A program made the position numbers and the translations under genes. From the NCBI GenBank assembly GCA_026706025.1, contig JAPOZO010000077.1, positions 1 to 64,000 of the forward strand: a DNA stretch of 64,000 nucleotides, read 5' to 3'. Under the pieces are notes generated by a model that was not told where the DNA came from, ran no database searches, and was given only the letters and a program-made list of their open reading frames with translations. This DNA is from Candidatus Poribacteria bacterium. Lineage in GTDB: Bacteria; Poribacteria; WGA-4E; WGA-3G. Every line of letters starts with the position of its first letter. Position 1 is the stretch's first letter. Of this stretch, positions 16,422-17,466 are shown piece after piece.

Positions 16422-16551
16422 CACGCGTCCCAATACGGGTAGGCGCAGTTTTGCGGCGCACTCGCTTATAAGCGATCTGCATTCCTAAACCTGCCTACTG
16501 ACAACTGCGTACTGATAACTGAAAACTAATAACCAATAAAGGAGAAAACTC

Positions 16552-17466
16552 ATGTTTAATTCCGTTGTTCGCCGTATCTCACTCGGCGTTTTATTGCTGA
16601 TGATAGGTACAATGCCAGCACTCCTCGCGAGCGGAGAGATCAGTTGGGAAAAATCGCTTGAGGACGGTATAAAAGAAGCCGAGAAGACCGGCAAACCCAT
16701 TATGCTCGATTTCTATACTGATACATGAGGGTTCTGTGATCGGCTGGATGCCGAAACATTTACGGATGATCGCATCATTGCGTTGTCCAAAAAGTTCATC
16801 CCGATTAAGGTAAACCCTGAAAATCAAGAATACCCTGAGAATGTAGAAGCCGTGAGGCGGTATCAGGTTACCGGATTCCCAACAATCGTCTTCGCAAGTT
16901 CAGATGGCGGTATGATTGCGAAACAGGTAGGATTCATCTACCCGAATGACTTCGCACCCGTGATAGAAGCTGCATTGGAAAAAGAGCAAGCCTTCATGGA
17001 AAAACTTGCTAAACTCGATAAGACACCGGATGATGTCAAACTTAATTCTCAAGTTGCACTCACCTATCTGGAACGGATGCAGCTTGAAAAAGCGCTCCCG
17101 TTCAGTAAGAAAGCGTTTCAACACGACCCGAAAAATCGCACAGGTCTTATGCCAGACTTGCATAACCAACTCGGACTCGCTTATGCCGGAAAGGTTGAAG
17201 CGGCTATGGTTGGCGCACCTGAAGAAGCCGGGATGTACTTTGAAAAGGCGGTTTCGCACTTCAGAACTGTGATAGACGAGTACCCGAAGAGCGATGTCAA
17301 GGATCCCGCCCAGTATTATCTCGGTATAACGTACGCGATCAAAGGCGAGTTTGATGAGGCAATCTCGGTGCTTGAAAAGTTAGTCCATCATACCAGCGAT
17401 GCGAATATCAAGCAGAACGCTGAAGCGATGTTGGAACGGGTGAAAGATTTGGCGGGTTCTAACTAA
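16552..17466 (+). CDS. Thioredoxin-fold TPR protein, candidate selenoprotein (in-frame TGA at CxxC)
   Basis: Read through one TGA, this is a 304-residue exported protein. ATG 16552 follows AAGGAG, and a signal peptide covers residues 1-27. The thioredoxin domain reads MLDFYTDT-[TGA]-GFCDRLDAETF: the stop (16726-16728, codon 59) stands exactly where the first Cys of CxxC belongs, with Cys62 as partner. The cis-proline motif TGFPTIVF (Pro110) follows. Residues about 150-300 form TPR-like helices. The frame stays open for 246 codons after the TGA. A small stem-loop with G in its loop starts 16 bases beyond. Selenocysteine insertion is the simplest reading; a nonsense mutation or sequencing error is the alternative. 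An internal ATG at 16783 would lose the active site. Confidence 0.75.
16729..16760 (+). promoter_or_regulatory. Candidate bacterial SECIS hairpin
   Basis: Just after the in-frame TGA the mRNA can fold TCGGC (16740-16744), loop TGGAT (16745-16749), GCCGA (16750-16754). A lower TGT/ACA stem lies across a small internal loop. The apical loop begins 16 bases after the TGA and has G as its second base, within the published spacing and loop rules for bacterial SECIS elements. The energy was not computed. Confidence 0.5.

Follow-up and report, generated by a model that had tools for sequence, protein, structure and literature searches.

A predicted selenocysteine form of a thioredoxin-TPR protein in Poribacteria

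Closest described proteins and the gene

Thioredoxin-fold selenoproteins with a UxxC motif are well known. The 119 families of a 2026 inventory include a UxxC 'thiol:disulfide interchange protein' with the domain PF13098, represented by WP_011366075.1 (PMC13188914, Table 1). Compared by its inventory entry only, this family shares with the protein described here both the Pfam domain and the UxxC motif with selenocysteine (Sec) in first position, but the domain is listed without a TPR tail. The fusion of a thioredoxin with TPRs is known from the chaperedoxin CnoX/YbbN (PMC8129009), in which the thioredoxin domain likewise precedes the TPR domain. However, CnoX/YbbN has Cys or Ser in place of Sec, works with cytoplasmic GroEL/ES and differs in its inter-domain arrangement; the present protein possesses both domains and falls outside that arrangement (global TM 0.25-0.27). 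The C-terminal (gamma) domain of DsbD ranks with the nearest solved structures in both sequence and fold, but it belongs to a membrane protein and carries Cys, whereas the domain studied here lies in a separate, predicted exported protein with Sec and TPRs. Two NCBIfam selenoprotein families were also compared. The C-terminal domain of TsoB (NF045694), a rhodanese/DsbD fusion-like selenoprotein whose motif is given as UxxxxU in the 2026 table (PMC13188914), is the best NCBIfam match, but it covers that domain only (70.2 bits against 805 for membership), and the rhodanese and membrane parts are missing here. The Trx7/PDZ selenoprotein (NF041199; 28.9 bits against 300) combines CxxU with a PDZ domain, whereas the present protein has UxxC and no PDZ match in Pfam.

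The combination of Sec with TPRs appears neither in NCBIfam 20.0 nor among the 119 families of the 2026 inventory (PMC13188914). Neither TPR nor Poribacteria is mentioned in the 2026 inventory review (PMC13188914), the 2025 deep-Sep paper or the 2022 review, in a search that mostly did not extend to subscription papers and preprints. As far as these sources go, what is new is the Sec form of the thioredoxin-TPR protein, a selenoprotein (sub)family within the already known UxxC thioredoxin kind. An earlier note on this DNA had found the combination of thioredoxin, TPR and Sec unfamiliar, which holds for the Sec form but not for the architecture, shared by CnoX/YbbN and by Cys forms in Zixibacteria, Armatimonadota and Planctomycetota.

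The gene lies in the window, by which we mean the whole 64,000-nucleotide stretch of DNA that was analysed. Its frame runs from an ATG at 16552 to a TAA at 17464-17466 and, when TGA is read through, contains a single internal stop, the TGA of codon 59 at 16726-16728. Its features are as follows.

16538..16544, + strand: Shine-Dalgarno sequence AAAGGAG, 7 nt before the ATG
16552..17466, + strand: predicted selenoprotein gene, exported thioredoxin-TPR protein of 304 residues with Sec59; single frame, TGA read through
16552..16632, + strand: predicted signal peptide covering roughly residues 1-27, with a basic start, a hydrophobic core and ALLA/SG, from the translation
16678..16962, + strand: thioredoxin domain, PF13098 Thioredoxin_2, DsbD-gamma-like, from profile and structure matches
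16726..16728, + strand: UGA codon, putative selenocysteine 59, first position of UxxC; TGA in orthologues, Cys in homologues
16735..16737, + strand: resolving Cys62 of UxxC, invariant in 50 orthologues
16879..16881, + strand: cis-Pro 110 of the thioredoxin fold (CCA), invariant in 50 orthologues
17035..17463, + strand: TPR-type helical domain, about residues 162-304; Pfam TPR_1, TPR_2 and TPR_6, all-helical model with pLDDT mostly >90

The translation bears out the earlier claim that the frame is broken by the TGA alone, at the first Cys of a CxxC motif. The context LDFYTDT-U-GFCDRLDAETF is a thioredoxin active site with its first Cys replaced (motif TDT-U-GFC), and the domain belongs to Thioredoxin_2 (PF13098; 63 bits against a gathering score of 27), with the TPR matches following it in Pfam. 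The signal peptide and the cis-Pro described in that note are in place, the former as a prediction and the latter as the CCA of codon 110; the sense codons after the TGA number 245 rather than 246. Shine-Dalgarno-like sites are also found upstream of most orthologues, and the AAAGGAG site together with the hydrophobic N terminus probably marks a translated protein that is likely to be exported. Residues 1-26 have pLDDT <50 in the structure model. Ordinary gene calling would truncate such a selenoprotein at the UGA. The gene is flanked upstream by yidC-jag-mnmE and downstream, on the opposite strand, by an rsuA-like pseudouridine synthase gene, a HAD gene and pdxJ. This neighbourhood is kept in most relatives looked at, and no functional clue was found in yidC, jag, mnmE, the pseudouridine synthase or pdxJ.

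Decoding of the in-frame UGA

In the bacterial system, SelA makes Sec-tRNA-Sec using selenophosphate supplied by SelD, and SelB delivers the charged tRNA to UGA. The four genes that the earlier note had proposed to look for (selA, selB, selC and selD) all occur in the same genome: SelA (604 bits), full-length SelB (352.8 bits against a cut-off of 242.25), SelD (359.8 bits) and, adjoining selB, a tRNA-Sec with anticodon UCA (78.1 bits against 47). A lack of selenocysteine machinery, which would have spoken against the note's reading, is thus excluded. SelD carries an in-frame TGA of its own (CAG-U-ASKL), followed at almost the same spacing by a hairpin containing G. SelB scores above the cut-off in 46 of the 50 carrier genomes of the order; completeness is just 80-83% in each of the four genomes with no complete match, one of which has SelB spread over more than one contig.

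The conservation pattern described below requires a sense reading of codon 59, which a reassignment of UGA to Trp, Gly or Cys in this genome would also supply. This explanation is exceedingly improbable. The genes rnpA, mnmE, pdxJ and glnE in the window, like some orthologues of the thioredoxin-TPR gene, end in TGA, which indicates that the code is not reassigned; furthermore, the tRNA-Trp of the window has a CCA anticodon and the full Sec system is present.

A homologue was found at E <1e-10 in 51 of the 60 genomes searched. All 50 full-length orthologues, from 9 genera and with identity down to 30%, have TGA at the aligned codon 59 and none has Cys, a conservation far beyond chance. Counted from the match list, with the codon read individually for only part of the carriers, the TGA form occurs in 73 of 85 genomes of the phylum and a Cys form in none of these 73. 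The listed matches that lack TGA in this larger set are fragments at contig edges, downstream pieces of the same genes, and DsbD-like proteins of about 600 residues. Sequencing error at 16726-16728 is ruled out, as many independent assemblies share the TGA, several of them single-contig chromosomes; the TGC or TGG that the earlier note had offered as a refutation is excluded with it. That note had also remarked on Thr in place of the usual Trp before the putative Sec (16723-16725). This is correct for the window. Trp is the rule among orthologues, and Thr occurs in this species, its closest relatives and a few others; L007, L008, L012, L072 and L148 have Thr, and further exceptions are Arg in L110, Ser in L123 and Tyr in L070. 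Five genomes of one other genus in the same family (G065, G066, G069, G070 and G080) each encode two TGA-containing paralogues of the thioredoxin-TPR protein.

Outside Poribacteria the aligned codon is TGC or TGT in 30 homologues and TGA in one, from the FCB-group genome L148. Such pairing of Sec with Cys among homologues is a classic sign of selenocysteine, and it answers the homologue check that had been suggested for codon 59.

Selection on the two sides of the UGA bears on whether it is a true stop, in which case the gene would be a pseudogene or would yield just a peptide of 58 residues, possibly followed by a separately initiated protein. In favour of this, TGA serves as an ordinary stop codon in the genome, and translation of a 227-residue protein could begin at an in-frame TTG at 16783. 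However, median dN/dS is 0.185 before the TGA and 0.177 after it; equally low values on both sides, together with the synonymous constraint described in the next section, indicate that translation continues past the TGA and that the sequence beyond it is under an additional constraint. Cys62, which lies between the TGA and the TTG at the third codon past the TGA, is invariant. Ahead of the TGA, itself fixed in the orthologues, the start site, the signal peptide and the surroundings of the active site are all conserved. A pseudogene was rejected on the conserved TGA and the similar dN/dS before and after it, and a true stop in any form is hardly more credible than reassignment of the code.

The machinery, the conserved TGA, the Cys homologues, dN/dS and the hairpin described below thus agree with the earlier proposal that a TGA at a redox Cys specifies selenocysteine. 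Judged from these comparisons of sequence, the UGA of codon 59 is almost certainly decoded as Sec, and 16552-17466 very likely encodes a functional Sec-containing oxidoreductase of the thioredoxin fold; the predicted Sec form of the thioredoxin-TPR protein is fixed in Poribacteria. Poribacteria, a candidate phylum represented mostly by genomes from sponges, would thus keep Sec in a predicted exported redox protein. Our literature search on Poribacteria and selenoproteins found nothing. SelA and SelB have been reported to co-occur in most symbiont bins of one sponge metagenome (PMC5649159).

A candidate SECIS element

A stem-loop with a small G-containing loop lies just 3′ of the UGA and has the following parts.

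16733..16766, + strand: putative bacterial SECIS element; synonymous constraint and one compensatory pair
16742-16744 / 16750-16752, extended by 16741 / 16753, + strand: apical stem; compensatory pair
16745-16749, + strand: apical loop UGGAU; hairpin starts 16 nt after the UGA
16733-16739 / 16760-16766, + strand: weaker, weakly supported lower stem

Synonymous change is lowest in the gene at codons 61-69. When the gene was scanned in 300 five-codon windows, the five with the smallest synonymous variation, 0.095-0.219 against a gene median of 0.713, were those beginning at codons 61-65. Leu65 is CTG in 50 of 50 orthologues, a codon used for 261 of the 1485 Leu residues (about 18%) in these genes, and at the same position the Cys homologues use CTG, CTT, CTC, TTG, TTA or a Met codon. 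The replacement of Arg64 by Gln (CGG>CAG) is accompanied by a silent change in Ala67 (GCC>GCT) that keeps the pair (GC to AU) in 6 distinct sequences, which are partly related and so represent fewer than 6 independent events. The lower stem is paired in 74.5% of cells and broken in many orthologues; RNAalifold drops it and retains three pairs only. The folding energy calculated from one sequence alone does not stand out (z -1.43, with 16 of 200 shuffles as good), and the upper stem is weaker in L072, the most distant orthologue. The synonymous constraint and the one covarying pair suggest that the hairpin immediately after the UGA is a SECIS element. It provides a testable SECIS from Poribacteria, a phylum for which our literature search found none described.

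Function, origin of Sec and further UGA-containing thioredoxins

By sequence, the solved structures closest to the protein are those of a putative disulfide isomerase and of DsbD C-terminal domains. A structure model built from a 50-row alignment reached pLDDT 90.9 and pTM 0.85, and its thioredoxin part matches DsbD-gamma with target TM 0.70-0.78. The same genome encodes a full-length, Cys-type DsbD. These structure matches, the model and the presence of DsbD speak for a Sec-containing reductase or isomerase that is exported and would bind clients through its TPR tail, and the protein is probably a DsbD-gamma-like thiol reductase or isomerase. Taken part by part, there is good reason to regard it as an extracytoplasmic UxxC oxidoreductase; a net reductase or isomerase is somewhat more plausible than an oxidase; and for the TPRs as a client-binding tail the chances appear even.

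By E-value, the best structural match is YbbN/CnoX, a thioredoxin-TPR chaperedoxin (PMC8129009), and this match raises the alternative that the Sec protein is mainly an oxidase, a peroxide-detoxifying partner or a CnoX-like holdase, a rival for the function but not for Sec. YbbN/CnoX ranks first because thioredoxin and TPRs are joined there too; the match covers the domains and not their arrangement, as the same low TM and an rmsd of 22 indicate. E. coli CnoX, moreover, carries SxxC and is a partner of cytoplasmic GroEL, whereas the present protein combines a predicted signal peptide with a DsbD-gamma-like domain and an intact UxxC. We regard this alternative as a serious contender, though somewhat less probable than the reductase or isomerase.

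In the explanation that we favour, the hairpin after the UGA acts as the SECIS, SelB brings Sec-tRNA-Sec, and the UGA is read as Sec59. The signal peptide would export the 304-residue protein to work as a thiol-disulfide reductase or isomerase outside the cytoplasm, where Sec59 would attack a substrate disulfide and Cys62 would resolve the intermediate. The oxidised protein could then be re-reduced by DsbD, the membrane reductase of the genome, while the TPR tail may bind clients.

The Cys thioredoxin-TPR proteins of Zixibacteria, Armatimonadota and Planctomycetota (L129, L131, L132, L145 and L149) share the architecture and an FYTDWCxxC-type motif, with 24-32% identity over the aligned part. 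They differ in having Cys instead of Sec and an unconstrained Leu codon at the position of the SECIS loop. Several Cys homologues possess this architecture, so it does not depend on Sec, and they offer a natural pair for asking what Sec contributes to an exported reductase. The FCB-group bacterium carries a TGA form of the thioredoxin-TPR protein (L148:940-1965, FFTNT-U-SWC) in a genome with SelB. A tree built on the thioredoxin domain groups the Sec forms sampled from Poribacteria in one clade (99/97) and places the L148 Sec form among Cys proteins. This placement suggests that Sec may have arisen twice, in Poribacteria and in the FCB-group lineage; a single Sec/Cys change was found in 0 of 200 bootstrap trees, but two changes are not required by the starred branches on their own.

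Three further thioredoxins of the same genome have TGA at the first Cys of the motif. Two are predicted to be secreted and combine the thioredoxin with dockerin type I (PF00404, about 41 bits each): L188 (G000:C69:41679-41930, EFYAEW-U-PFC) and L190 (G000:C59:38347-38598, EFKSEF-U-IYC). No dockerin selenoprotein was found in our literature search. The third, L196 (G000:C65:30217-30456), is a 200-residue lipoprotein-like thioredoxin with ELGAEW-U-GFC. The apparent lock-in of Sec (73 carriers, no Cys form) and these three proteins, two of them with dockerin, would point to the use of selenium on secreted or surface-assembled proteins; a selenoprotein redox system of Poribacteria dedicated to the space outside the cytoplasm is a tentative proposal, with the odds slightly against it. 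About 9 kb away from L196 there is a paralogue with Cys, L187 (EFEADWCPFC).
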